NCBI RefSeq assembly: GCF_002224485.1 | Contig: NZ_CP022463.1 | Span: 580,804-644,803 of the forward strand | Length of the DNA: 64,000 nucleotides | Source: Sinomonas sp. R1AF57 | GTDB taxonomy: Bacteria; Actinomycetota; Actinomycetes; Actinomycetales; Micrococcaceae | Direction: 5' to 3' | Shown here: piece by piece, positions 8,116-64,000 of the stretch | Layout of the letters: each line of letters begins with the position of its first letter | Position numbering within the stretch: the stretch's first letter is position 1 | The notes under the pieces: generated by a model | Databases searched by the model: none | The model's input: the letters and a program-made list of their open reading frames with translations, nothing else | Told to the model about the DNA's origin: nothing | Translations under genes and position numbers: made by a program

Positions 8116-9915
8116 TCAGCCGTTGGTGATGGTGAAGTTCTCAACGCCGCAGGCTGACGAGGCCGTCAGGTTGTTGGCATCGCCCGAGTAAGTCGATGCC
8201 CAGCGCCATGTTCCTGCCGTGGCGGCGTGGAACGTGCTGTTGGTGGTGCTGTACGTGCCGTTGCCGCTGACGGGCACCGTCTGCGTGAGGGCCGGTGTGC
8301 CGGAGCAGGTCGCGTCGGTCGGAGCGTACAGGTTGAAGGTGATCGACCCGCCAGGGGTTCCGAATCCGCCGGACAGCGTGAAGTTGTCATTCGGGATGAG
8401 GTCCTGGGCGGTGGCCACGGTCGGCTGCGCCTTGGTCACGACGAGATGCTCCTCGGTGCAGGTGCTGGAGGCGCCGTTGTTGTTGGCGTCGCCGCTGTAG
8501 ACCGCCTGCCAGTAGTAGTCGCCCGCAGAGTTGAACGTGATGGCGTTCGAATCCGGGATGACGCCGTTGGTGACGGTCATGGTACCGGCGGCTTGTGCGT
8601 TCTTGGCGCAGGCGCTGTCACTGTAGACCGTGTACGTGACGGTGCCGCCAGCGGTGGCCGTCGCTCCCGTGAGGGCGGCGGAGTCATGGACGGCGGTGCC
8701 CACCGCGACCGAAGTAGCGGAGAGCGTGGTCGCGATCGTCGGGCTGACGTTGATGTGGTTCGTGTAGGTGCAGTCGACATTGCCGCCCAAGCCCATCGTG
8801 ACGTTCACGGTGGCGCCGCTGACTGCGTAGCTAGTGCCCGAGCCGGTTGCGGTGCAGGCAACGCTCTTGAGCGTCCAACCTGCTGTAACCTGTGCGGCGG
8901 TGAGATTCTCGGTGACTGACGATGCTCCCGCGGCGACGGAAGTGTACTGCTTCTGTCCGCCGTTGCTCAGGGTGAAGGCACTGGTTCCGATCTTGCCCGT
9001 CGGCGCGTAGTTGAAGGTCGAGTCTCCGTTCTCGGTGACCTTGTGGATCGTGATCGTTCCGCAGTTGGAGATGTTGACGGGAATCGGTGCGATGAAGTCC
9101 TTGAGTTCCGCCGTGAACGAGGACGACGACCTGCTCTTGACGAAGGCGCTGCCGAAGGACTCGCATGTCCCTTCAGGGATGACGCCGGCGCCGGTCAGGT
9201 CGATCGCTGCCTCGCCGAACAGGCCGGTGCCGATGTTCGTGTTGAGGAACGGCTCGGACACGGAAGCGCTATTCACAGCGCCCTCGGCGTTCGTTCCTGT
9301 CAGTGTTGCGTGCTTGCCCCAACACGGCAGGGCGTTCGCGGAGAAGCATTGGCCGACGGTGTTGCCTGCGGCGGCCGTGAGCCACGTGTTGATGCCAAGC
9401 GTCGGGGTGCCGCTGCCGCCGAAGTCGTAGGTGACCAAGAGGTCGCCCGCTGTCCGGTTCAGGCTCACCGGTCCCGTAGTTGATGCCGTGAACCCTGTGG
9501 TCGGGTTCTGGCTGATTTCGAAGTCGAGATTTGCGTTTCCGATGTTGACGAGCCGTTCCCAGCCCAAATAGAGGTAGACGTGGCCGTTGGATCCGGTCTC
9601 GGACGCCTCGTAGAACCTGGTGAGATCGTTCTTGTTGGGCGGAATGGAGCCGGTCACGACCGTGGCGTTGGGGTCGTCTTCCTTGGTCCCTTGGCCGAAC
9701 GAGTTGTCGGTGCTGCCCGAGGGCTTGTCGACGCCGGTGTTGAGGCCGGCCACATTGGCCCAGTCGGTGTTGCCGGGAGTGTTGACGGCCAGGTTCCCGT
9801 CGGAGCCTTCGAATAGGCTGCCACTGAGGTTCGCCTGCGCCGACGTCGCGCCTGCCATCACGAGGGCGGTCACGGCGATACAAGCACCCCACCGGGTGCG
9901 GTGTGTGAGTTTCAT
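8116..9915 (-). CDS. Secreted surface protein with prealbumin-like and Ig-like repeats
   Basis: A 599-residue exported protein. A Sec signal peptide (basic KLTHRTRWG, hydrophobic core, likely cleavage after SAQA) is followed by an actinobacterial surface domain of about 270 residues rich in Gly, Thr, Asn and Ser (residues 31-300). Next comes a prealbumin/SpaA-like domain (GTITIHKVTENGD to VDCTYTNHI, about 305-410), then two related Ig-like repeats of about 95 residues, each with a Cys pair (CAKN..SSTC and CSGT..SSAC) and the shared YSGDANN motif. It stops at the end of the second repeat with no LPXTG signal, so it is probably released or loosely held. Its codon use looks less GC-biased than its neighbours, which may reflect transfer. 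The start MKLTHR at 9915 is set by the signal peptide. A GlxR-type box and a long leader lie upstream. Confidence 0.8.
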   Translation of the reverse strand: MKLTHRTRWGACIAVTALVMAGATSAQANLSGSLFEGSDGNLAVNTPGNTDWANVAGLNTGVDKPSGSTDNSFGQGTKEDDPNATVVTGSIPPNKNDLTRFYEASETGSNGHVYLYLGWERLVNIGNANLDFEISQNPTTGFTASTTGPVSLNRTAGDLLVTYDFGGSGTPTLGINTWLTAAAGNTVGQCFSANALPCWGKHATLTGTNAEGAVNSASVSEPFLNTNIGTGLFGEAAIDLTGAGVIPEGTCESFGSAFVKSRSSSSFTAELKDFIAPIPVNISNCGTITIHKVTENGDSTFNYAPTGKIGTSAFTLSNGGQKQYTSVAAGASSVTENLTAAQVTAGWTLKSVACTATGSGTSYAVSGATVNVTMGLGGNVDCTYTNHINVSPTIATTLSATSVAVGTAVHDSAALTGATATAGGTVTYTVYSDSACAKNAQAAGTMTVTNGVIPDSNAITFNSAGDYYWQAVYSGDANNNGASSTCTEEHLVVTKAQPTVATAQDLIPNDNFTLSGGFGTPGGSITFNLYAPTDATCSGTPALTQTVPVSGNGTYSTTNSTFHAATAGTWRWASTYSGDANNLTASSACGVENFTITNG

Positions 9916-51792: not shown

Positions 51793-52226
51793 CGCGCGAC
51801 ATCGGCTTCGAGGCGGCCCTCGAGGCGGCCCGGGCCGGGCTCGCGGAAGGCGGCATTCCCATCGGCGCCGCCCTCGTCCGCGGGGGCGAGGTCCTCGCCG
51901 TCGGGCGCAATGAGCGGGTCCAGAACGGGGACCCAATCGCCCACGGGGAGATGTCCGCGCTCCGTGCCGCGGGCCGGCAGTCCACCTACCGCGACACCGT
52001 CCTCTACACCACCCTCGCGCCGTGCGCCATGTGCGCCGGGACCATCGTCCAGTTCAAGATCCCGCGCGTCGTGGTCGGGGAGCAGCGCACCTTCCCCGGC
52101 GAGCTGGAGCTCCTGCGCTCGCGCGGTGTCGAAGTCGAGGTCCTCGACGATGCGCGGTGCGTGGAGATGATGGAGGCGTTCCAGCGGGATCAGCCCGCGC
52201 TCTGGGCCGAGGACATCGCCGAGTAG
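51789..52226 (+). CDS. Cytosine deaminase, FCY1-like (CDA fold)
   Basis: A 145-residue zinc deaminase. The zinc site is HGEMSAL (His and the proton-shuttle Glu) and APCAMCAG (two Cys). The rest follows yeast FCY1 closely: GGIPIGAALV, TVLYTTLAPCAMC, FKIPRVVVGE, LRSRGVEVEVLDDARCVEMMEAFQ and a final PALWAEDIAE. This is unlike the CodA-type bacterial cytosine deaminase. Cytosine to uracil is the likely reaction; related bases are possible. The GTG start overlaps the dehydrogenase stop (GTGA), so they are coupled. Confidence 0.82.
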   Translation: MTRDIGFEAALEAARAGLAEGGIPIGAALVRGGEVLAVGRNERVQNGDPIAHGEMSALRAAGRQSTYRDTVLYTTLAPCAMCAGTIVQFKIPRVVVGEQRTFPGELELLRSRGVEVEVLDDARCVEMMEAFQRDQPALWAEDIAE

Positions 52227-52307
52227 TCCGGTCCGCGACCGCGGGGTTTGCGCCGGTCCAGCGGGGGAAGGTTCCCCTCGGCACAGTTCCGAGGACGAGG
52301 AGGAGCC

Positions 52308-52925
52308 ATGGCGGACAAGCCCGGGAACCAGACCCCGAACACGCCCGACGTCAGCGAGACCGAGCTGCGCGGGATGACGGTGGACGAGCTGCGGCACAAG
52401 GCCAAGGAGGCCGGGATCGGCAGCACGTCCACGATGAAGAAGGAGGAGCTCGTCCACGCCCTGGCGGAGGCGGGCGGCGGACGCGGCGGTGCGGACGCGA
52501 AGGGCGAGAAGGCCACGGGCGGGACGGACGGAGGCGAGGGCGCAGGGCCCGACGGGGGCCGGATCCGCACCGGCAGCGGGACCTCGGACTCGCTCAAGTA
52601 CTCGCAGGAAGTGACCTCGCCCGAGGACGAGCCCGAGCGCGAGGGCCGCAGCCTCGTCACCACGCACCACGAGGTGATCCGGAAGTGGGCCGAGGAGCGC
52701 AACGGTGTCCCCGCGACCGTCCCCGGCACCGAGCACGGCGACAGCCTCGGGGTGCTGCGGATCGACTTCGGGGGCGACAGCGACACCCTCCGCGAAGTCA
52801 GCTGGGACGAATGGTTCGCGACCTTCGACGAGCGCAGGCTCAACTTCATCTACCAGGAGCAGCGCAGCGACGGGCGCCAGTCGACGTTCTTCCAGCTCGA
52901 GAACCCCGAGCGCGAGGACGCCTGA
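52308..52925 (+). CDS. Rho_N-domain hypothetical protein
   Basis: A 205-residue soluble, acidic protein. Residues 18-52 (TELRGMTVDELRHKAKEAGIGSTSTMKKEELVHAL) form a Rho N-terminal/SAP-like helix pair, which in other proteins binds nucleic acid. A Gly-rich linker follows. The C-terminal half (VTTHHEVIRKWAEERNGVPATVPGTEHGDSLGVLRIDFGG, then SWDEWFATFDERRLNFIYQE) is a conserved actinobacterial block of unknown function. GAGGAGGAG precedes the ATG. It stands alone. Confidence 0.75.
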   Translation: MADKPGNQTPNTPDVSETELRGMTVDELRHKAKEAGIGSTSTMKKEELVHALAEAGGGRGGADAKGEKATGGTDGGEGAGPDGGRIRTGSGTSDSLKYSQEVTSPEDEPEREGRSLVTTHHEVIRKWAEERNGVPATVPGTEHGDSLGVLRIDFGGDSDTLREVSWDEWFATFDERRLNFIYQEQRSDGRQSTFFQLENPEREDA

Positions 52926-52979
52926 GCCCGTGGCGCTCGGGCCCGAGGCGCCTGGGCCCGAGGCTGCCGCAGCAGTGTC

Positions 52980-53786
52980 CTAGCTGGCCGCAGCCGCGAC
53001 CGGGCTGCCGCCGAGGCGCCGCGTGATGTCCCGGGCAGCCTGGGCGCACGCCTCGCCGAGCACCTGCAGGTGCTCCGGGGAGATGCGGAAGCGGGGGGCC
53101 GAGATGAGCACGGCGGCCACGACGTCCCCGCGGTGGTCGAAGACCGGTGCGGAGACGCCGACCTCCTCGACGGAGGTCTCGCCGTAGTTGAGGGCGTACC
53201 CCCGCTGGGACACCTCGGCGAGGCGGCGCGCGAAGGCATCCAGGCCGGCGTCGTCCGTCTCCGCCAGCGCGACGGTGCCCGCGCGGAGGAGCGCGCGGGC
53301 CCGTTCGGGCTGCTCGGCCGCGAGGAAGACCTGCACCGAGGCGGACACGGCGGTGCTGTAGCGGGTCCCGAGCGTCGTGGTGTGCTTGACCTGGTGCGGG
53401 CTCGGGATCTGCTCCACGGAGACGGCCTCCTGGCCGTTCCACTTCAGCAGCGCGCTCGTCTCCCCGGTCCGCTCCGTGAGTTCCCGCAGCACCGGATACG
53501 CCACGCGGCGCTCGTCGAGGTCGGCCAGGAGGGGGCCGGCGACGGCGATGAGCCCGAGGCCGAGCCGGTACCGCCGCGTCGGCTCGTCGCGTTCCACGAG
53601 CCCCTCCGACTCGAGGGTCGCCAGGATGCGGGAGACAGAGCTCTTGTGCAGCCCGACGCGGGCGGCGATGTCCGTCACCCCTATGAGGGGCTCGTCGACG
53701 CTGAAGCAGCGCAGCACCGCGATGGCATTCGAGATGGGGGACGACCCGCGCGCCTCAGCGGCCTCGCCGTTCACGCTTTCGATCAT
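52980..53786 (-). CDS. IclR-family regulator of the creatinine cluster
   Basis: A 268-residue regulator. The N-terminal winged helix (about 15-75) has NAIAVLRCFSVDEPLIGVTDIAARVGLHKSSVSRILATLESEGLVER. The C-terminal effector domain (about 90-265) has TSALLKWNGQEAVSVEQIPSP and the Cys-less ligand pocket typical of the family. It is the last gene on the minus strand after the MHS transporter, past a strong hairpin. I propose that it binds the GTTGCG-N5-CGCAAC sites in the promoters of the creatinase and MHS genes; PucR or another factor could do so too. Start ATG at 53786. Confidence 0.85.
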   Translation of the reverse strand: MIESVNGEAAEARGSSPISNAIAVLRCFSVDEPLIGVTDIAARVGLHKSSVSRILATLESEGLVERDEPTRRYRLGLGLIAVAGPLLADLDERRVAYPVLRELTERTGETSALLKWNGQEAVSVEQIPSPHQVKHTTTLGTRYSTAVSASVQVFLAAEQPERARALLRAGTVALAETDDAGLDAFARRLAEVSQRGYALNYGETSVEEVGVSAPVFDHRGDVVAAVLISAPRFRISPEHLQVLGEACAQAARDITRRLGGSPVAAAAS

Positions 53787-53829
53787 GGGACAACACCTTA
53801 GGGAATGAGGGACGCCTGGGGCCACACGG

Positions 53830-53879
53830 CGGGTGCGCGCACGACGGCGGGTGGGAGACCGCCGTCGTGCGCGCACCCG
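53830..53879 (-). terminator. Hairpin after the MHS transporter gene
   Basis: A perfect 21-bp stem (53830-53850 with 53859-53879) with an 8-base loop. The centre of each arm is CACGACGGCGG or its complement. It lies 12 bases past the transporter stop and before the IclR gene, so the IclR gene is probably transcribed mostly on its own. Confidence 0.85.
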
Positions 53880-53891
53880 TTCTCAGGCACG

Positions 53892-55214
53892 TCAGTGGGC
53901 GAGCGGCCTGTTCGACGTCTCCTTCGCGCACAGGACGGCGACGAGGGAGACGGCAGCCGCGGCGACGAGGTACCACGCCGGGGCGAGCTTGGTGTGCATC
54001 ATCCCGATGAGCAGGGTCGCCATGAACGGGGCTGTGCCGCCGAAGACCGCGTTGGACAGGTTGAAGCTCACCGCGAAGCCGGAGTAGCGGATGCGGGTGG
54101 GGAACAGCTCGGCGAGGAAGCTCGGGAGCGTGCCGTCGTTGAGGGTGAGCATCGCGCCGAGGGCGATCTGGACGAGGAGCACCATCGCGAAGCTGCCCGT
54201 GTCAAGGAGCATGAACGCCGGGACGGTGAAGAGGATGAACGCCACCGAGGCGGTCAGGAGCACCCGCTTGCGGCCGAACCGGTCCGAGGCGAGGCCCGTG
54301 AGGAAGATGAAGCCTATGTAGGTCGTCAGGGCGATTGTCGTGGCGAAGAACGACTCCGTGGAGCCGAAGCCCAGCTCCTCGGAGAGGTAGGTGGGCATGT
54401 ACGAGAGGATCACATAGAAGCCCACGGCGTTCAGGAGCACCGCGCCGACGGCGAGGAGCAGCGCGCGCCAGTGCTTGGAGAACATGTCCTTGACCGGGGC
54501 GTGGGTGGTCTCGGCCTGGTCCTCGATCGCCCGGAACGCCGGGGTGTCCTCGAGCTTGGTGCGGATGTAGCGCCCGATCAGTCCCATCGGGGCCGCGAGC
54601 AGGAACGGGAGGCGCCAGCCCCACTCCGTCATCTGCTCGGGAGTCAGGACGATGGACAGGAGCGCGGCCAGGAGGGAGCCGAGCAGGAGGCCGGCGGCCG
54701 TGGAGGCGGGCACCACTGCGGCGTAGAGGCCGCGCCGGTTGGCAGGGGCGTACTCGACCAGGAACGCGGAGGCCCCGGCGTACTCGCCTGCGGCGGAGAA
54801 GCCCTGCACGACCCGGACGGCCAGGAGCAGGATCGGGGCCCCGACGCCGATCACCGCGTAGGACGGGATGAGCGCGATGCAGAACGTCGCGCCGCTCATG
54901 ATCAGGATCGACAGGGACAGGGCAGTGCGGCGTCCCAGCCGGTCGCCGATGTGGCCCCACACGAACCCGCCGAGCGGGCGGATGAAGAAGGAGATCGCGA
55001 AGACCGCGAACGTTGCGAGGAGGGCTGTCTGACGGTCCGTCTCCGGGAAGAAGGCCTGGGAGATCGTCGCCGCGAGGTACCCGTAGACCGCGTAGTCGAA
55101 CCACTCGACGAAGTTGCCGAAGAAGCTGCCCCACAGGACGCGGCGGCGTGCGTCTTTGCTGATGCCGTCGGCCTGCTGGATGTCGGAGGGGGCTGTGGAG
55201 TTCTCAGTGCTCAA
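53892..55214 (-). CDS. MFS transporter, MHS family
   Basis: A 440-residue, 12-helix symporter of the metabolite:H+ (MHS) type, which takes up proline, betaine, shikimate and other organic acids. Signatures are GSFFGNFVEWFDYAVYGYLAA at the first helix, FFIRPLGGFVWGHIGDRLGRR in the 2-3 loop, and RVVQGFSAAGEYAGASAFLVEYAP. In this cluster a likely substrate is creatine, creatinine, sarcosine or betaine. A GTTGCG-N5-CGCAAC site lies 23 bases before the start, so it is probably co-regulated with creatinase though separated from it by a terminator. Confidence 0.88.
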   Translation of the reverse strand: MSTENSTAPSDIQQADGISKDARRRVLWGSFFGNFVEWFDYAVYGYLAATISQAFFPETDRQTALLATFAVFAISFFIRPLGGFVWGHIGDRLGRRTALSLSILIMSGATFCIALIPSYAVIGVGAPILLLAVRVVQGFSAAGEYAGASAFLVEYAPANRRGLYAAVVPASTAAGLLLGSLLAALLSIVLTPEQMTEWGWRLPFLLAAPMGLIGRYIRTKLEDTPAFRAIEDQAETTHAPVKDMFSKHWRALLLAVGAVLLNAVGFYVILSYMPTYLSEELGFGSTESFFATTIALTTYIGFIFLTGLASDRFGRKRVLLTASVAFILFTVPAFMLLDTGSFAMVLLVQIALGAMLTLNDGTLPSFLAELFPTRIRYSGFAVSFNLSNAVFGGTAPFMATLLIGMMHTKLAPAWYLVAAAAVSLVAVLCAKETSNRPLAH

Positions 55215-55236
55215 AGGAAACCACCAGTATCTTGGG

Positions 55237-55253
55237 GTTGCGTTTAGCGCAAC
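55237..55253. promoter_or_regulatory. Operator site 1, GTTGCG-N5-CGCAAC
   Basis: GTTGCG TTTAG CGCAAC, a 17-base perfect inverted repeat, 23 bases upstream of the MHS transporter start. A second small palindrome ATTGCACCAAT (55257-55267) adjoins it. Confidence 0.75.
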
Positions 55254-55359
55254 TCGATTGCACCAATGTAGGCTCGCCCACCGCTTGTGGTCAAGATCAC
55301 TCGTGCATGTGACGCGCAGAACGCACCTCGGTTGCCTCCAGGTACTGCCGCCACGTACG

Positions 55360-55403
55360 ACGACGGCGCCGCACCCCGCGCGGGCGGGGTGCGGCGCCGT
55401 CGT
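55360..55403 (-). terminator. Terminator after the creatinase gene
   Basis: A perfect 20-bp stem (55360-55379 with 55384-55403) closed by GCGG, 10 bases past the creatinase stop. The outer ends are ACGACGGC/GCCGTCGT. Confidence 0.88.
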
Positions 55404-55413
55404 GCGTGCCGGA

Positions 55414-56673
55414 TCAGGCCTCGATGATGTTCTTCTCCGGGCCGAACGGGAACTTGGTGATGTTCTCGACCGAGTCCTCGCCGATCACGAGGATGTCGTG
55501 CTCGCGGTAGCCGCCCGCGCCCGGGAGGCCGTCGGCGACCGTGATCATCGGCTCCATGGAGACGACCATGCCCGGCTCGAGCACCGTCTCGATGTCCTCG
55601 CGGAGCTCGAGGCCGGCCTCGCGGCCGTAGTAGTGCGAGAGGACACCGAACGAGTGGCCGTAGCCGAACGTGCGGTTGGGGAGGAGGCCGTAGCCGATGT
55701 AGATCTCGTTGAGCTCGGCGGCGATGTCCTTGCAGACGGCGCCCGGCTTGATGAGCTCGAGGCCGCGGCGGTGCACCTCGACGTTGATGTTCCACAGGCG
55801 CAGGCTCTCCTCGTCCGGCTGGCCCAGGAACAGGGTGCGCTCGAGGGCCGTGTAGTAGCCGGAGGTCATCGGGAAGCAGTTCAGCGAGAGGATGTCGCCC
55901 TTCTCGAGCTTGCGGGTCGTGGCCCAGTTGTGGGCGCCGTCCGTGTTGATGCCCGACTGGAACCAGACCCAGGTGTCGCGGACCTCGCGGTGGGGGAACG
56001 TCTTGGCGATCTCGTGCACCATGGCCTCGGTGCCAGCGAGGGCGACCTCGTACTCGGTGATGCCCTCGCGGATCGCGTTGCGGATGGCCTCGCCGCCCAG
56101 GTCGCCGATGCGGGCGCCGTGCTTGATGACCTCGATCTCCTCGGCGGACTTGATCATGCGCTGGCGCATGGCGTCCTGGGAGACGTCCAGGAGCGCGGCG
56201 CCGGGGAACGCGGCGGCGATCTTCTCGCGGGTCAGGGTCGGGAGCGCGTCGTCCTCGACGCCCAGGCGGGTGGCCCGGACGCCGCGCTGGCGCAGGGCCT
56301 CCTGGAGGCCGAAGTAGAAGTTGTCGCGGCGCCAGTCGGTGTAGACGATGTTCTCGCCGTAGGAGGTGCGCCACGGCATTCCGGCGTCGATGTTCGCGGT
56401 GACGGTGACCGAGTCGTCGGCGGTGACGACCAGAGCGTAGTTGCGGCCGAACGTCGTGTAGAGGAAGTCGGAGTAGTACTTGATGCCGTGGTAGCTCGTC
56501 AGGATGACGGCGTCGAGCTCCTTGGCGGCCATGATCTGGCGGAGGCCGCCCAGGCGGCGCTCGAACTCCGCATCGGAGAACGTGAGCTTGCCCTTGGAGC
56601 CGTTGTGGAGCACCTTGAGGCGCTCGAGCTCGGCGACGCTGGTGGCGGACGTGGAAGCCGTGTCGACGGACAT
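55414..56673 (-). CDS. Creatinase (creatine amidinohydrolase)
   Basis: A 419-residue M24 (pita-bread) enzyme that hydrolyses creatine to sarcosine and urea. It is not a metal peptidase; metal ligands of the fold are absent, and the catalytic His is H248 in GINTDGAHN, the counterpart of His232 in the Pseudomonas enzyme. Other near-identical blocks are TSYHGIKYYSDFLYTTFGRNYALVV, IKHGARIGDLGG, LSLNCFPMTSGYYTALERTLFLG, YGHSFGVLSHYYGREAGLELRED and the C-terminal NITKFPFGPEKNII. The first 25 residues are an extension relative to Pseudomonas. Creatininase lies upstream on the same strand. Two copies of GTTGCG-N5-CGCAAC and extra half-sites lie in its promoter. Confidence 0.95.
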   Translation of the reverse strand: MSVDTASTSATSVAELERLKVLHNGSKGKLTFSDAEFERRLGGLRQIMAAKELDAVILTSYHGIKYYSDFLYTTFGRNYALVVTADDSVTVTANIDAGMPWRTSYGENIVYTDWRRDNFYFGLQEALRQRGVRATRLGVEDDALPTLTREKIAAAFPGAALLDVSQDAMRQRMIKSAEEIEVIKHGARIGDLGGEAIRNAIREGITEYEVALAGTEAMVHEIAKTFPHREVRDTWVWFQSGINTDGAHNWATTRKLEKGDILSLNCFPMTSGYYTALERTLFLGQPDEESLRLWNINVEVHRRGLELIKPGAVCKDIAAELNEIYIGYGLLPNRTFGYGHSFGVLSHYYGREAGLELREDIETVLEPGMVVSMEPMITVADGLPGAGGYREHDILVIGEDSVENITKFPFGPEKNIIEA

Positions 56674-56720
56674 GGTGTCTCCTTCTCAGGGATCGTTGCG
56701 TGGTTGCGAGAAAGTCTTCG

Positions 56721-56737
56721 GTTGCGTTAGCCGCAAC
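56721..56737. promoter_or_regulatory. Operator site 2, GTTGCG-N5-CGCAAC
   Basis: GTTGCG TTAGC CGCAAC, 48 bases before the creatinase start. Extra GTTGCG half-sites lie at 56695 and 56703 and a GTTGCA at 56741, so this promoter holds a cluster of half-sites. Confidence 0.78.
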
Positions 56738-56792
56738 CTCGTTGCATCAGACTAGCTGTGGTGGGCGTCACGGTCAAGCGACGTGCACTTTG

Positions 56793-56809
56793 GTTGCGAT
56801 GAGCGCAAC
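56793..56809. promoter_or_regulatory. Operator site 3, GTTGCG-N5-CGCAAC
   Basis: GTTGCG ATGAG CGCAAC, 72 bases centre-to-centre from site 2 and 11 bases after the creatininase stop. The two sites could hold a DNA loop over the creatinase promoter. Confidence 0.78.
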
Positions 56810-56819
56810 TTTGCGGTGC

Positions 56820-57593
56820 TCAGGGCCGGCTGACCTCGGCGGCGATGGACTCCGCGAGGGCCTTGGACGTGCGCTCGAGCAGGAGCTGCCCCGCCGCCTC
56901 CGAGGCGGCCTTGGCCGAGGACAGGCAGCCCGAGGCCGGGGTGAGCTCCGGCCGCACAGGGAGCACGTCGTATCGGGGCAGCTGGGCCGCGGGAAGGTCC
57001 ATGACGCGGTCCAGCTGGACGAGGCGCGGATAGAGGTGAAGCATGAGCGAGGTCTCGAGGACGCCGCCGTGCTCGACGTCCCAGCCCGGGAACGAGCCGC
57101 GGTAGATCTCCTCGATCGTCTCCTCGTCCACGAAGTCCCAGTAGGAGAGCAGGACGGCGGAGAGGTCCTGGCCGCGCAGGCCGAGCTCCGCGGTGGCCTG
57201 CTCGACGCCCTCGTAGATGAACTGGTAGTTCTCGAAGTGGCCGTTGAGGAAGACGATCCGCCGCGCCCCGTGCCGGGCGAACTCGAGCGTGAGCGTCCTG
57301 GCGATGGAGATAAGCGTCGTGCCGTCGAGGCTCGTCGTGCCCCCCAGGTGGTTGCCGCCGCCGGAACGCTGTTGCGACTTGTAGCCGTACACGATCGGCG
57401 CGGCAACGAGGCCTCCCAGCGAGGCTGCGAGGCGCTCGCCCATGGCCTTCGACAGCAGGACGTCGGTGTTGAGCGGCAGATGCGGCCCGTGCTGCTCAAT
57501 GGATCCGACGGGGACGATGACGGGGGCGCCCGAGGCGATTGCCTCCCGGTAGCTGAAGGCGTCGAGCTCCTCCATGAAGACGCTGGTGGCCAT
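56820..57593 (-). CDS. Creatininase (creatinine amidohydrolase)
   Basis: A 257-residue metal hydrolase that opens creatinine to creatine. The metal and catalytic residues of the Pseudomonas enzyme (E34, H36, D45, H120, E122) align with E33, H35, D44, H119 and E121 here, in VGSIEQHGPHLPLNTDVLL and FLNGHFEN. YGYKSQQRSGGGNHLGGTTSLDG, LSYWDFV and WDVEHGGVLETSLMLHLYP are further matches, which favours true creatininase over the wider family of MftE-like proteins. The NCS1 permease gene lies 96 bases upstream across a hairpin. No GTTGCG site precedes it. Confidence 0.93.
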   Translation of the reverse strand: MATSVFMEELDAFSYREAIASGAPVIVPVGSIEQHGPHLPLNTDVLLSKAMGERLAASLGGLVAAPIVYGYKSQQRSGGGNHLGGTTSLDGTTLISIARTLTLEFARHGARRIVFLNGHFENYQFIYEGVEQATAELGLRGQDLSAVLLSYWDFVDEETIEEIYRGSFPGWDVEHGGVLETSLMLHLYPRLVQLDRVMDLPAAQLPRYDVLPVRPELTPASGCLSSAKAASEAAGQLLLERTSKALAESIAAEVSRP

Positions 57594-57635
57594 GGTTCCT
57601 CCTGGGTGCAGGGTGTGGGAAGGCGTGCTGAAGGG

Positions 57636-57669
57636 CGCCGGCGGCGGGGGTCGTGCCCCGCCGCCGGCG
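57636..57669 (-). terminator. Intercistronic hairpin between permease and creatininase genes
   Basis: CGCCGGCGGCGGGG (57636-57649) and CCCCGCCGCCGGCG (57656-57669) pair perfectly over 14 bases with a 6-base loop. It lies 20 bases past the permease stop and 42 before the creatininase start. It may end most transcripts or tune the ratio of transporter to enzyme. Confidence 0.75.
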
Positions 57670-57689
57670 GAAGGTGGTGTCGCTGGACG

Positions 57690-59276
57690 CTAGGGGATCG
57701 TCGGTGCGGCGGCCGGCGCGGCGGCCGGCACCTCCGGTGACGTCGCGGACGACGCCGGGGACTCGCCGTCGTGCGCGGCGTTGCCGTGGGCCTCGAGGAA
57801 CTCCTCGTCCCGGATGTCGGTGCGGATGCCCAGCGGGACGCCGTGGTGGATCCGGTCGCGGAAGCGCGGGTAGCCGAGTGCGAAGTAGGTGCCGCCGGCG
57901 ACGACGGTCCCGGCGAGCCAGGAGAGGTCCACGCCGCCCATCGCGGTGGCGATCGGGCCCTGGAAGATCGGGATCGCGCCGTACATGAAGAGCCAGGTCG
58001 CGAAGAGGCCCAGGGCGAAGGCGATGAGCGCGGACGGGTTCACCGCCTTGAGGTGGGTGTCGCGGGGGCTCATGAAGAGGTAGTCGAACTTCTTGTGGCG
58101 GCGCTCGAAGATGAAGTAGTGGACCGCCATGATCCCGCCCCACGTCGCGACCCACGCCGCGATCGCGATGACCCAGGTGTCCAGGAGGGTCGCGAAGTCC
58201 TCGGCGAAGAGGAAGAGGATGACCGCGCACATCGAGAAGCAGCCGACGATGATCGAGATCTTCTTGCGGGAGATCCTGATGTCGAGTGCCTGCGTCGCGA
58301 CGCCGAACGTGTAGAGATTGATGATGTTCGTGGCGATCGGGCCGTGGATCACGAGCAGGATCACCGGGATCGCCATGGCGCCGAAGCTCTTGACGATGAG
58401 CTCGCCGGGGTCTGCGGTGCCGTTCATGGTCGCGAGGCTCGCGCCGAGGAGGCCCAGCCAGATGACCGGCAGGAACTGGCCCAGGACCGAGGTGAGGTAG
58501 AGCTTGCGGGCCGGGATCTTCTTGGACACGAACCGCGAGTAGTCGGGGGCGTACGTGAACCAGCCGATGCCCCAGCCGATGCCGATGGCCGTCATGATCC
58601 CGGACATCGCGGCGATGCGCTCGCCGCCGGTGAGGACGGCGCCGGCGGGGCCCGCGTAGGACCAGTCGATGGGGAGCTGCGTCCACGCGATGATCGACAT
58701 CGCGACGAGGACCAGGAGCGTGGGCGGCATGGTGATCCGCTCGAACTTGGCGATCGCGCCGTAGCCGCGGTAGCAGATGCCGACCTGGATGCTCATGATG
58801 ATCGCCGCGACGGCGATCTTCCAGACCAGGTTCTCCTCGGCCGGGTCGACCCATCCGATCATGCCGAACAGCGCCATGACCAGGTCCAGGATGACCCAGG
58901 TGTTCACCGCGGACCAGCCCACGGCCACGATGGCCTGGATGGCCGCAGGGACGTAGGCTCCACGGCGGCCGAAGGCGCCGCGGGCCAGCAGCATGCCGGT
59001 CGCGCCGGTCTTCTGGCCGAGGAGGACGAAGAATCCGAACCCGACCATGCCGATGATGTTGCCGAGGACGAGCACCGTCATGGTGTCCGCGAGGCCGAGG
59101 CCCATGTTGATGCCCAGGGCGCCGAGGATCCAGTTGATGGGGGCTACGTTGGCCCCAGCCCAGATCCAGAACTGCCCGGAGACCTTGGTGGTGCGAGCGG
59201 ACTCGGGGACGGGCTGCAGCACGTCTTCGACGACGTGCGTGGCGTCCTCAGTCTTGCTCTGAGTGCGAAGGCTCAT
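57690..59276 (-). CDS. NCS1-family nucleobase/creatinine permease
   Basis: A 528-residue, 12-helix permease of the NCS1 (CodB/Fur-type) family, importing nucleobases, hydantoins or similar rings with Na+ or H+. It has WIWAGANVAPINWILGALGINMGLGLADTMTVLVLGN at helix 1 and AFGRRGAYVPAAIQAIVAVGWSAVNTWVI. A cytosine-like ring transporter next to creatininase makes creatinine the best guess, as in Pseudomonas where a codB gene neighbours creatininase. The last 30 residues are an Ala/Pro-rich tail. It is divergent from the PucR gene. Confidence 0.88.
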   Translation of the reverse strand: MSLRTQSKTEDATHVVEDVLQPVPESARTTKVSGQFWIWAGANVAPINWILGALGINMGLGLADTMTVLVLGNIIGMVGFGFFVLLGQKTGATGMLLARGAFGRRGAYVPAAIQAIVAVGWSAVNTWVILDLVMALFGMIGWVDPAEENLVWKIAVAAIIMSIQVGICYRGYGAIAKFERITMPPTLLVLVAMSIIAWTQLPIDWSYAGPAGAVLTGGERIAAMSGIMTAIGIGWGIGWFTYAPDYSRFVSKKIPARKLYLTSVLGQFLPVIWLGLLGASLATMNGTADPGELIVKSFGAMAIPVILLVIHGPIATNIINLYTFGVATQALDIRISRKKISIIVGCFSMCAVILFLFAEDFATLLDTWVIAIAAWVATWGGIMAVHYFIFERRHKKFDYLFMSPRDTHLKAVNPSALIAFALGLFATWLFMYGAIPIFQGPIATAMGGVDLSWLAGTVVAGGTYFALGYPRFRDRIHHGVPLGIRTDIRDEEFLEAHGNAAHDGESPASSATSPEVPAAAPAAAPTIP

Positions 59277-59415
59277 GTGAGACTACTTTCTCGAAGGTAT
59301 CGCTTGGGGGAGCGAGTAGCCGGCTGCCTTCAAGCGTAGATGTGCCCCACGTCACCACCTAGACTCGTTCTGTCGCCTGCTGCTCCTGTTGCGGGGGACA
59401 CTCTGTCTCCTTCCG

Positions 59416-60933
59416 ATGGGATTTGCCGTGGCCCTGCCTCTCACCGAAGTCCTCGCCAGCAGCGTGCTCGCCGTCGGCGCACCGGTCGTGGTGGGCGGCG
59501 GTGCCGCGGTGGAGCAGGCGCGTGTCCGATGGGTGCACTCCTCGGAAGTCCTCGAGATCGCTCCGCTCCTCTCTGGCGGCGAGCTCCTGCTCACCGGCGG
59601 GTCCGCCCTCCTCGCGCTCAAGCCGGCCGCGCAGTCCGAGTACATCTGGAGCCTGTCGAACCGGAGGGTCGCGGCGCTTGCCGTGCAGACGGCGGGAACC
59701 GGCAGGCGCCTGCCGTCCGAGCTCGTCGCTGCTGCGGACGAGGCGGCCCTGCCGCTGATCGAGCTCAGACAGGTCGTGCCCTTCGTCGAAGTGGCAGAGT
59801 CCGTCAACCGGCGGATCGTCTCGGGGCAGGTCACGGCGCTCCAGCTCGCGGACAGCCTCTCGCAGGCCCTCACCGAGCGCATTGCCAACTCCGGCGCGCT
59901 GCTCGGTCCGCTCGTGGCGCTCATCGCCGAGACGATGGGAGTGTACGTGCGGGTGGTCGACACGCGGGGCGCCGTGCTCGCATCGGCGGGCCAGGAACCG
60001 GGCGAGGGCGCGCACGGTCCCGACACCGAGCTCGCCGTCGGCGGGATCGGTGCAGCCCGGCTCGAGCTCATCGGGGGCCGCGACGCCGACGACGAGCTTC
60101 TCGAGACCGTCCTCGCGCGGGTCCGCAGCATCGTGGCGCTCGCCCTGGCCCAGCAGCACCGCCCGAGCCTCGCACGCCTCGCCGAGGACGAGCTCCTGCG
60201 GCTCATCGACGCCGGCGGCGGCGGCGACCGGCTGCTCGAACTCAGCCAGGCCGCCGGCATCCCTCCCGAGCAGCCGCTCGTCATGGCCGTGGTCCGCAGG
60301 CCCGTCGACCGGTCCGCCGACATCGAGCAGCGGGCCCGCACCGCCCTTCCGTCGGCACTGCTGGCCGTCGACGGCGACTGGGTCGACATCCTCATGACCC
60401 TGCCTCCCGGCGCCGGGTCCCAGGACCGGGAGCGCGTGCTCGCCGTCCTGCGCGAGGCTGTTGCGGGCCGTGGGCTCACGGGTGCCCTCGGCCCCACCGC
60501 CCCGACCATCCGCCAGGCGGCATACTCGCTGGCCGAGGCCAGGGCGACGTGGCGGATCGGCCGGTCGTCGAAGTGGACCGACGCGATTCACGACGCCTCC
60601 GACTTCCTCGTGGAACGGATGGCCGAGCGCTCGCTGTCCCGGGGGGCCGTGGACGCCATCGTGGAAGAGTCCATCGGCGAGCTCATCCGCCTCGACCAGC
60701 GCCACGGCGGCGAGCTCGTGCGCACGCTCGACGTGTGGATCACCACCGGATGCAATGCCACTGAGGCGGCCGAGATCCTCTTCCTCGAGCGACAGTCGCT
60801 CCACAAGCGGCTCCGGCGGATCTTCTCGGCGCTCGGCGGGGACCCGCGGGGGCGGGGGAAGCTCGGGGCGCTCGCGTTCGCCGTCAAGCTGGTGCGCGGC
60901 AACGCCCAGCTCCGGGACGACGCCCGTCCCTGA
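59416..60933 (+). CDS. PucR-family transcriptional regulator
   Basis: A 505-residue regulator. The N-terminal PucR domain (about 5-130) begins LPLTEVLASSVLAVGAPVVVGGGAAVEQARVRWVHSSE, seen in regulators of purine and amine breakdown. A central GGDEF-like helical region follows, and a PucR C-terminal helix-turn-helix (TLDVWITTGCNATEAAEILFLERQSLHKRLRRIFSALG, about 438-475). It is divergent from the NCS1 permease gene, 139 bases apart, which makes this the likely activator of creatinine uptake. The start may instead be a GTG at 59428, which has GGGA six bases before it. Confidence 0.87.
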   Translation: MGFAVALPLTEVLASSVLAVGAPVVVGGGAAVEQARVRWVHSSEVLEIAPLLSGGELLLTGGSALLALKPAAQSEYIWSLSNRRVAALAVQTAGTGRRLPSELVAAADEAALPLIELRQVVPFVEVAESVNRRIVSGQVTALQLADSLSQALTERIANSGALLGPLVALIAETMGVYVRVVDTRGAVLASAGQEPGEGAHGPDTELAVGGIGAARLELIGGRDADDELLETVLARVRSIVALALAQQHRPSLARLAEDELLRLIDAGGGGDRLLELSQAAGIPPEQPLVMAVVRRPVDRSADIEQRARTALPSALLAVDGDWVDILMTLPPGAGSQDRERVLAVLREAVAGRGLTGALGPTAPTIRQAAYSLAEARATWRIGRSSKWTDAIHDASDFLVERMAERSLSRGAVDAIVEESIGELIRLDQRHGGELVRTLDVWITTGCNATEAAEILFLERQSLHKRLRRIFSALGGDPRGRGKLGALAFAVKLVRGNAQLRDDARP

Positions 60934-61200: not shown

Positions 61201-62013
61201 TCAGGAGCGATCCTGGGCGGCCGGACCTCCCATGAGTTCGGTGATCTCCTCGCCGGCGGCGATCACGGCCTTGACGAGGTCGGGGTCGGCGTCTGGGTCG
61301 AAGCGGAACGCAGGGCCGGAGATGCTCACGGCCCCGATGACCTCCCCGGTGTGCCCGAAGACGGGGGCCGCGATCGCGTTGAGGCCCTCCTCGAGCTCCC
61401 CGTGGGTCGCGGCGTAGCCCAGACGCATGATCTCGGGCAGCTGCTCGTCCAGCTGCTGGCGCGTGAGAGTGCGCGGCGTGAGCGTCTCGGGAGGCGCATC
61501 CCGCAGCACGTCGTCGCGCAGGCCCGGGTGCATGTAGGCGAGGAATACCTTGCCGCTCGAGGTGGCGTGCAGGGGGGTGAGGTTGCCGATCCAGTTGAAG
61601 CTCGCGAGGTTAGTGGGGCCCATGGCCTGGTCGACATTGACCGCGTACCCGCCGCGGAGCACGGCGAGGTTGACCGTCTCGCCGAACTGATGCGCGAGGT
61701 CCTCGAGGACGGGCCTGGCTGCGTGGACGAGGCTGAGGCGGCGCGGGATCGAGCTCGCGATCCGCAGGAGGCCAACGCCCAATTGGTACTTGCCGCGCCG
61801 GGAGCTCTGCTGCACGAACCCGTGGGCCTCGAGCGCGCCGAGGATGCGCGACGCCGTCGACTTGTGCACGCCGATGCGGTCCGCGACGTGGCCGACGGCG
61901 GCGCTGCCCTCCCTGGCGAGGATCTCGAGGGCTTGGACGACGCGCTCGACGGATTGGACGCCATTGGCTGAGCGGCCCACGTCCGGATCATGGTCGCCGG
62001 ATGTTCTGCTCAT
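61201..62013 (-). CDS. IclR-family transcriptional regulator
   Basis: A 270-residue regulator. The winged helix (about 18-75) is GVQSVERVVQALEILAREGSAAVGHVADRIGVHKSTASRILGALEAHGFV. The effector domain (about 90-260) has the pocket signature NLAVLRGGYAVNVDQAMGP and YAATHGELEEGLNAIAAPVFGHTGEVIGAVSISGPAFR. It is distinct from the creatinine-cluster IclR (about one-third alike by eye). The first 17 residues are an acidic, Asp/Gly-rich extension. Repeat arrays F and G flank it on both sides. Regulated genes are unknown. Confidence 0.88.
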   Translation of the reverse strand: MSRTSGDHDPDVGRSANGVQSVERVVQALEILAREGSAAVGHVADRIGVHKSTASRILGALEAHGFVQQSSRRGKYQLGVGLLRIASSIPRRLSLVHAARPVLEDLAHQFGETVNLAVLRGGYAVNVDQAMGPTNLASFNWIGNLTPLHATSSGKVFLAYMHPGLRDDVLRDAPPETLTPRTLTRQQLDEQLPEIMRLGYAATHGELEEGLNAIAAPVFGHTGEVIGAVSISGPAFRFDPDADPDLVKAVIAAGEEITELMGGPAAQDRS

Positions 62014-62056
62014 GGCCTGATTCTTCCAGACCTGTCGAGCCGGCCCCCGGAGCGCC

Positions 62057-62437: not shown

Positions 62438-63067
62438 TCAGTGGCCCCGGTCGATCCACTCCTGCAGGTGCGGGGCCTCGTCGCCGATCGTCGTCGAGTC
62501 GCCGTGCCCGGTGTTCACCACGGTCGCGGCGGGCAGCGTGAGCAGCCGGCCCTTGATGGACTCGATGATCGTTCCGAAGTCCGAGTAGGACCGCCCGGTC
62601 GCGCCCGGGCCGCCGGCGAACAGCGTGTCGCCGGTGAAGACCGTCCCGAGCGACTCGGCGTAGAACGACACCGAGCCGGGCGAGTGGCCCGGCGTGTGCA
62701 GGGCACGCAGCTCGGCCCCGCCCACGCTGAACACCTCGCCGTCGGCGATCTCCGCGTCCGGCGCAGTGCCGGGGTACACGTCCTCCCACAGCATGAGGTC
62801 GCCGGGGTGCAGGAGCACGGGCGCCCCGACCTTGTCGGCGAACTCCCGCGCGTGGCGGATGTGGTCGTCGTGCCCGTGCGTGAGCAGCACCGCGGTCACG
62901 GTGCGGCCCGCGACGGCGTCGGCGACAGCCCCGGCGTCGTGCGCGGGGTCGATGACGATGGCCTCCGCGTCGTCGCCCACGATCCAGACGTTGTTGTCCA
63001 CATCCCAGGTGCCACCGTCGAGGGAGAACGTGCCGGACGTGACCAGGCGATCGATCCGAGCCGTCAC
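62438..63067 (-). CDS. MBL-fold hydrolase linked to mycothiol formaldehyde dehydrogenase
   Basis: A 209-residue metallo-beta-lactamase-fold hydrolase of the glyoxalase II type. The metal motif is [12 protein letters not shown], with [32 protein letters not shown] and [12 protein letters not shown] completing the site. It starts at a GTG that overlaps the dehydrogenase stop (GTGA). In Actinobacteria this pair is constant, and the hydrolase is thought to split S-formylmycothiol to formate and mycothiol. This last step is inference from context. Confidence 0.88.
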
Positions 63068-64000
63068 AGCTCGACCACCGAGCGCAGGACCTCGCCGCGG
63101 TGCATCTTCTCGAACGCGGCCTCGACGTCGTCAAGCCCGATCCGCTCGGTCACGAACGCGTCCAGCGGCAGGCGGCCGAGCTTGAACTGCTCGACGAGCA
63201 TCGGGAAGTCGCGGCTCGGGAGGCAGTCGCCGTACCAGGAGGACTTGAGCGAGCCGCCGCGGCCGAACACGTCCAGGAGCGGCAGCTCGAGGGTCATCTC
63301 GGGCGTCGGCACGCCGACGAGGACCACGCGGCCGGCGAGGTCGCGCGCGTAGAACGCCTGCTTGTACGTCTCCGGCCGGCCGACGGCGTCGATCACCACG
63401 TCCGCGCCGAAGCCGTTGGTGAGGTCGCGGATCGCCTCGACCGGGTCGGTCTCCTTCGACACCACGCCGTGCGTCGCGCCGAGGCCCTTGGCGAGCTCGA
63501 CCTTGGCGGGGTCGAGGTCCACGGCGATGATCGTCGTCGCGCCCGCGAGCTTGGCGCCCGCGATGGCGGCGATGCCCACGCCGCCGCAGCCGATGACAGC
63601 AACGGACTCGCCCCGCTTGACCTCGCCGGTGTTGATCGCGGCGCCGATGCCGGCCATGATGCCGCAGCCGAGGAGGCCGACGGCGGCGGGGTCGACGTCG
63701 TCGTCGATCTTCGTGCACTGCCCGGCGGCGACGAGCGTCTTCTCGGCGAAGGATCCGATGCCGAGCGCGGGCGAGAGCGGCGTGCCGTCCTTCAGGGTCA
63801 TCTTCTGCGTCGCGTTGTGGGTCGCGAAGCAGTACTGCGGCTGGCCCTTCCTGCACGCGCGGCACTCGCCGCACACGGCGCGCCAGTTCAGGATGACGCG
63901 GTCGCCCGGCTTGAGGTCGGTCACGTCCGGGCCGACCGCCGAGACGACCGCGGTGGACTCATGGCCGAGGAGGTAGGGGTAGTCGTCCCCGATCCCGCCG
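63064..64000 (-). CDS. S-(hydroxymethyl)mycothiol dehydrogenase, 5' end cut off
   Basis: The 311 C-terminal residues of a class III alcohol dehydrogenase that oxidises the formaldehyde adduct of mycothiol. The structural zinc lobe is [15 protein letters not shown], and part of the catalytic zinc site is visible upstream (LLGHEST). The cofactor site is [53 protein letters not shown] and [21 protein letters not shown] match the mycothiol-dependent (MscR-type) enzyme. The open frame runs off the window end at 64000. The MBL hydrolase is coupled to it downstream. Confidence 0.9.

Follow-up and report, generated by a model that had tools for sequence, protein, structure and literature searches.

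We found that an inverted repeat recurring in the creatinine cluster of Sinomonas sp. R1AF57 is probably the operator of IclR1, the IclR-family protein encoded beside it, through which the use of creatine and creatinine would be controlled (estimated probability of about 0.86). Sequence comparison makes it very probable that an IclR-type switch protein docks on the motif to control creatine and creatinine genes in soil actinobacteria. The preliminary description of this DNA had proposed that the repeat defines a creatine-use regulon of a dimeric-type regulator, possibly the adjacent IclR protein. Both proposals fit our comparative tests, as the motif appears to follow a three-box grammar and tracks IclR1 better than it tracks the PucR-family regulator nearby.

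In the window, i.e., the whole 64,000-nucleotide stretch of DNA analysed, the minus strand encodes an NCS1-family transporter (57690-59276, below NCBIfam cut-offs) upstream of a creatininase (56820-57593; TIGR04448, 324 bits for a cut-off of 235), a creatinase, or creatine amidinohydrolase (55414-56673; match to PDB 1chm, E 9e-170), an MHS-family metabolite:H+ symporter with a TTG start (53892-55214), which is a candidate for creatine or creatinine uptake, and IclR1 (52980-53786). A PucR-family regulator is encoded divergently (59389-60933, plus strand), and a second IclR protein, IclR2, is encoded 9 kb from IclR1 (61201-62016). IclR1 belongs to the IclR family by both PF09339 (56 bits, cut-off 22) and PF01614 (97.9 bits, cut-off 24), and its recognition helix reads GLHKSSVSR. 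Its best NCBIfam matches, BhcR (NF045644, 121.9 bits, cut-off 350) and PcaR/PcaU/PobR (TIGR02431, 98.9 bits, cut-off 284.75), all fall below cut-off and place it in neither subfamily, and residues 90-261 match the IclR-family effector domain of PDB 3obf (E 5e-67). Between the MHS and IclR1 genes lies a long G+C-rich inverted repeat (53826-53876) that looks like a terminator by eye, which suggests that IclR1 is not fully cotranscribed with MHS here. Adjoining the IclR2 gene are genes for an S-(hydroxymethyl)mycothiol dehydrogenase and a hydrolase of the metallo-beta-lactamase fold (62438-63924, continuing to L181:5055), a pair that would fit the removal of formaldehyde from sarcosine oxidation.

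A scan of the window recovered the three perfect 17-bp copies of GTTGCG-N5-CGCAAC announced in the preliminary description, one before the MHS gene (operator O1, 55237-55253, minus strand) and two before creatinase (proximal O2, 56721-56737, minus strand; distal O3, 56793-56809, plus strand). Their spacers (TTTAG, TTAGC and ATGAG, respectively) differ in letters and are constant in length, and an exact-match scan found no further copy in the window, again as described. The nearest other copy has one mismatch, at 8846; with two mismatches allowed, the window holds eight copies, which is not above chance (mean 5.4). Order-1 Markov resamples contained on average 0.01 exact copies, with a maximum of 1 in 200 resamples. 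We also took into account that many repeats could have been picked: 15 palindrome classes (hexamer and spacer) have at least three copies in the window, and resamples too reached three to four copies, with half-sites made of G+C only. Classes with at least two A/T per half-site numbered three in the window and none in five resamples. Taken alone, the window triplet is suggestive; once the comparative data are added, sequence analysis makes it certain that the motif is real, and a chance repeat was ruled out by the multi-locus specificity scan together with resampling. Two further GTTGCG half-sites do occur where they had been reported (56695 and 56703), but we judged them to lie outside the operator because no counterpart was visible by eye in the aligned sites of relatives.

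In its own genome (3,939,870 bases), the motif is restricted to two transcription units. TTGCG-N5-CGCAA occurs four times, versus two for the control pattern, and three of the four are the window copies. The fourth copy (C1:974209) lies within an unrelated mechanical ORF of 308 amino acids (L004:1208-2134). The shorter pattern GTTGC-N7-GCAAC occurs six times, versus three for its control, and its three copies outside the cluster (window 8846, C1:542097 and C1:974209) are all inside mechanical ORFs.

We then compared 90 creatinase loci (1.58 Mb): that of the window, those of 11 same-genus relatives and 78 from a set of 80 named loci. L056 and L058 were left out as duplicates from the same assemblies as L042 and L044, and close relatives (L036 and L037, for example) stayed in the set. 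The conserved core proved to be GTTGC-N7-GCAAC, with 99 copies in 63 of the 90 loci. With any other spacer from 0 to 20 the count stayed at four or below, as it did for all 29 half-site permutations at N7. The inner G/C of the 17-mer is mainly a Sinomonas trait and lies outside this core. Two further peaks of the scan, GCAAC-N3-GTTGC (81 copies) and boxes in the same direction 15 apart (105), led us to recognise the full operator as GCAAC-N3-GTTGC-N7-GCAAC. The third box is exact on at least one side at 68 of the 99 sites and has one mismatch at 24, giving at most one mismatch at 92/99; no exact box was found at five control offsets. Two of the 99 sites are of a sister type, GTTGCT-N5-AGCAAC. 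Three alternating boxes at fixed spacing correspond, as far as sequence can tell, to the layout by which IclR three-box sites are recognised.

This architecture is visible in the window itself. The O2 palindrome is joined at 56741-56745 by an exact GCAAC on the gene strand (minus), forming a strict 25-bp operator that the genome scan matched at G000:C1:637524-637548. O1, which has counterparts before MHS in relatives, has its third box at 55257-55261 on the same strand, GCAAT, with one mismatch to GCAAC and N3 from the palindrome. At O3 the box is weak (GCACT, 56785-56789, two mismatches). O3 lies upstream of the -35 element, 72 bp from O2 and in mirror orientation. In the Sinomonas group, a second palindrome occurs 71-73 bp upstream in 8 of the 12 cluster-bearing genomes, with mirror orientation in all eight pairs, and a single exact copy is found in the other four (L042-L045).

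The position of the palindrome relative to predicted promoters is equally constrained. In the window, predicted sigma-70-type promoters on the minus strand precede MHS (55265-55294; -35 TTGACC at 55289-55294, 18-bp spacer, -10 TACATT at 55265-55270) and creatinase (56749-56777; -35 TTGACC at 56772-56777, 17-bp spacer, -10 TAGTCT at 56749-56754), each ending 11 bp before its palindrome. The full pattern (TTGAC, a spacer of 17-18 bp, TAnnn[T/G]) was found at 53 of the 99 sites, in 49 of the 63 loci, and ends 11-12 bp before the palindrome at these 53. An operator just downstream of the -10 element would cover the transcript start, which is the usual position for a repressor. Furthermore, a GTG-N8-CAC dyad occurs at -34 to -36 at 65/99 sites. 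The window has it in the spacer of the creatinase promoter (56758-56771), as a candidate second control, and lacks it at the MHS promoter. Since the dyad shares the core of the GlxR/CRP consensus TGTGA-N6-TCACA given in PMC7999487, it may add CRP/GlxR-type carbon control.

To assign a regulator, we scored IclR1 as present in a locus at 200 bits or more. IclR1 and the motif occur together in 57 of the 90 loci, IclR1 alone in 4, the motif alone in 6 and neither in 23 (p 4e-12, versus p 0.003 for PucR and the motif in the same loci; both Fisher values overstate independence because the loci are related). The four exceptions among 61 IclR1-bearing loci that lack an exact motif are L068, L093, L097 and L107. 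Among the six loci with the motif and no IclR1 in their flanks, L046, L061, L069 and L092 stop at contig ends, and the genomes of L088 and L099 have a 52% or 66% relative elsewhere. All 69 IclR copies that score at least 150 bits in the 90 loci, a few of them paralogs, keep the recognition-helix residues HKS[ST]. Furthermore, the operator moves with MHS when the latter changes place within the cluster: it lies before MHS where MHS leads the unit, and ahead of each of the two units where an IclR copy lies between them. Four loci of the same genus (L036, L037, L038 and L039) carry a duplicated IclR1 in the cluster, with the second copy between MHS and creatinase. Glutamicibacter creatinolyticus has two creatinase copies; the one in L053 lies beside a fragmented IclR1 without an exact motif, and the other has three strict operators (G136, which we equated with the L053 genome by agreeing coordinates).

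Two other proteins of the window might read the motif in place of IclR1. The divergent PucR, acting as a nitrogen-type activator, adjoins the cluster in 12/12 Sinomonas-group genomes with creatinase and, as given above, shows some association with the motif. We nonetheless regard it as a highly unlikely reader and rejected it in that role: 29 loci have IclR1 and the motif yet no PucR, none of the three loci that carry PucR but lack IclR1 (L047, L060 and L110) has the motif, and the three-box layout has been described for IclR proteins (PMC8222616). Neither L047 nor L060 comes from a genome with an IclR1 ortholog (best matches 31-32%), and a 52% relative is present elsewhere in the genome of L110. 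IclR2, or another IclR paralog, is of the same family as IclR1, and IclR2 itself is only 9 kb away, but we regard this reading as very unlikely and rejected IclR2 as the reader. IclR2 is only about 33% identical to IclR1, adjoins the mycothiol-dependent formaldehyde dehydrogenase gene, and had no ortholog in the stretches of 17-20 kb seen from 11 relatives; moreover, the closest paralog of IclR1 (C1:663.6 kb) is part of a different cluster, which has different sites.

The remaining alternatives concern how the repeat works. Placed in the predicted 5' leader and able to pair into a 5-bp stem, it might act in RNA, as a leader hairpin or riboswitch, and not as a DNA operator. We consider this to have a negligible chance of being correct and rejected it, given that positions 52000-60000 yielded no Rfam match at gathering scores, that a hairpin sits poorly with the third box and with mirror copies upstream of the -35 element, and that the box letters are identical across genera, a count in which exact matches only were included. 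Activation of the PcaU/PobR kind, with repression secondary, is unlikely, yet it accords with O3 lying upstream of the promoter and with the NCBIfam families that IclR1 resembles most, below cut-off. PcaU and PobR act by activation. Against it stand the promoter-linked copy downstream of the -10 element, a position seen at the 53 sites (of 99) that show the full pattern, and the single exact copy of L042-L045. Operator position thus points to repression over activation.

IclR1 repressing from its operator would work as follows. The full site is GCAAC-N3-GTTGC-N7-GCAAC, with the palindrome starting 11-12 bp past the -10 element, and IclR1, perhaps as a dimer of dimers, would bind its boxes. In the absence of inducer the protein would cover the transcript start and block both the creatinase and MHS units, and a metabolite of the pathway (creatine, creatinine or sarcosine) would act on its C-terminal domain to release it. 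In the 8 of 12 Sinomonas-group genomes with paired sites, one promoter lies between two mirror operators, and the regulator may bridge both.

Across 295 genomes of the family, creatinase was found in 124, IclR1 in 117, the strict 25-bp operator in 113 and all three in 103. When sites with T at box base 6, i.e., those of the sister type, are excluded, which removes G040, the operator remains in 112, of which 108 have creatinase. Among creatinase genomes, the association of IclR1 with the operator is weak at the cut-offs used (103 both, 11 IclR1 only, 6 operator only, 4 neither; p 0.019). This table is weakened by the cut-off of E 1e-75, at which some genomes lost IclR1 relatives of 46-55%; in all the genome tables, relatives below about 55% identity are missed and kinship of the genomes inflates the statistics. 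Eight of the 11 genomes with creatinase and IclR1 and no strict operator have a relaxed one, two have none (L197 and L201) and one is cut by a contig end. The operator occurs without creatinase in four genomes: in G031 and G090 no creatine gene was recognised nearby, and in G050 and G290 IclR1 lies near a contig end. The strict three-box sites at L187:4698 and L188:7649 are in two genomes without a creatinase or IclR1 match, and no creatine gene was recognised beside them. G008, of the same genus and without a creatinase ortholog, carries GTTGCGTTATCCGCAAC (L184:5145-5161) directly before homologs of the mycothiol dehydrogenase and hydrolase, as well as a 61% IclR1 fragment at L184:1896-2096; site and fragment are possibly a remnant.

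For each of the 99 sites, the likely target was taken to be the queried protein whose start lies closest downstream, up to a distance of 350 bp. These targets were MHS at 55 sites, creatinase at 27, SHMT at 4, creatininase at 3, NCS1 at 2, and an IclR paralog, an isochorismatase and an IclR2-like protein at 1 each, with no such start at 5. The six sites distant from creatinase that were examined (L223-L228), three on another contig or 2.5 Mb off and three about 12 kb off, all have an MHS homolog downstream, which argues for action in trans. In L069, L080 and L081 a divergent SHMT gene also has the operator on its upstream side, with a homolog of sarcosine oxidase beta after SHMT in L069 and L080. 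Sites before sarcosine oxidase genes, which the preliminary description had suggested looking for, thus exist in a few Arthrobacter-type loci. In the genome of the window, the SHMT/soxB unit that was found (C1:665.5-668.1 kb) belongs to another cluster and has no upstream site within three mismatches.

The sister type points to a second route. We found 19 three-box sites of the form GTTGCT-N5-AGCAAC in 17 of the 295 genomes, 18 of them upstream of a homolog of N-carbamoylsarcosine amidase, at 26-39 bp from the site centre to the projected start. The genes behind these 18 encode proteins 91-95% identical to the Sinomonas protein that matches 1nba, the structure of N-carbamoylsarcosine amidohydrolase (E 1e-162). 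No amidase homolog was found downstream of the nineteenth (L231:5913, G085), whose stretch includes a hydantoinase homolog. An IclR paralog and a fused hydantoinase A/B were each present in 15/17 sister loci. The genome of the window has, outside it, a second cluster of the creatinine-to-sarcosine type (C1 about 655.6-668.1 kb; L181:15574-19900 and L182:1-8162), with genes for MHS, an N-carbamoylsarcosine amidase homolog, a second MFS protein, fused hydantoinase A/B, an IclR paralog, GntR, SHMT and a soxB homolog, the last identified on the relative L183. Its sites are TTTGCT-type palindromes, some doubled 20 bp apart.

The IclR paralog of this cluster (C1:663.6 kb) is 55-57% identical to IclR1, and the paralogs that were checked keep a [GND]LHKSTVSR recognition helix. 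A tree of 99 IclR proteins separates an IclR1 group of 75 rows (support 95/92) from 20 rows of paralogs (94/67), a branch that is not firm in a tree with long-branch warnings and three further rows in neither group. The paralog seems to run the N-methylhydantoin route through the sister motif. We give an even chance to a wider scheme in which two paralogous IclRs split the creatinine-to-sarcosine routes, IclR1 taking sites usually with G/A at box base 6 (creatinase, transporters, a few SHMT/sarcosine oxidase genes) and the paralog taking GTTGCT-N5-AGCAAC/TTTGCT (amidase, hydantoinase), with the mirror operators of Sinomonas clamping one promoter from both sides. As the recognition helices are nearly identical (GLHKS[ST]VSR), specificity would depend on a single base step together with protein residues beyond the helix, and the pair would offer a natural case of divergence between regulator and operator.

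Both enzymes, creatinase and N-carbamoylsarcosine amidohydrolase, are known and structurally characterised (1chm and 1nba). What our analysis adds is a candidate regulator and a predicted 25-bp operator in 112/295 genomes of the family, and a candidate sensor of creatine or creatinine, IclR1, with an effector domain closely related to the solved structure 3obf. Among open-licence PubMed Central papers, we found no direct report of IclR control of creatine or creatinine use and no occurrence of the motif string, and our searches of these papers showed no substrate-specific regulator of creatinase or N-carbamoylsarcosine amidohydrolase genes in Micrococcaceae. The main text of PMC8222616, as distinct from its supplementary tables, makes no mention of "creatin", sarcosine or Arthrobacter; an earlier prediction in that supplement or in RegPrecise is possible.

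The survey of IclR sites in PMC8222616 defines two motif arrangements, gives 32 ortholog groups with predicted three-box sites and cites the requirement of PcaU for its third box. The creatine operator shares with the three-box operators of PcaU, PobR and HmgR the alternating direction of the boxes. One of its box pairs spans 17 bp, like group 1 of the survey (GKTYCRYW3-4RYGRAMC), and the other is arranged like the group 2 core GRAAC-N3-GTTYC, while the palindromes repeated 20 bp apart in the sister cluster resemble its tandem class. Compared with the group 1 consensus, length and most letters agree, but the fourth letter of the creatine box GTTGC is G, not C/T. The correlations reported there between residues His27/Lys28 and bases look favourable when mapped onto GTTGC; as the position numbering is our own reading, they were not counted as evidence. 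Unlike the known three-box IclR systems, the predicted targets here are creatine and creatinine genes. In Corynebacterium glutamicum ATCC 14067, AmtR represses the genes for creatininase, a creatine transporter, N-carbamoylsarcosine amidase and hydantoinase (PMC8864220). AmtR is a TetR-family nitrogen regulator, whereas a local IclR protein and a different operator are indicated here. Given the IclR three-box grammar with a GTTGC box, and AmtR elsewhere, we class the creatine system as a new regulon built on a known kind of operator.
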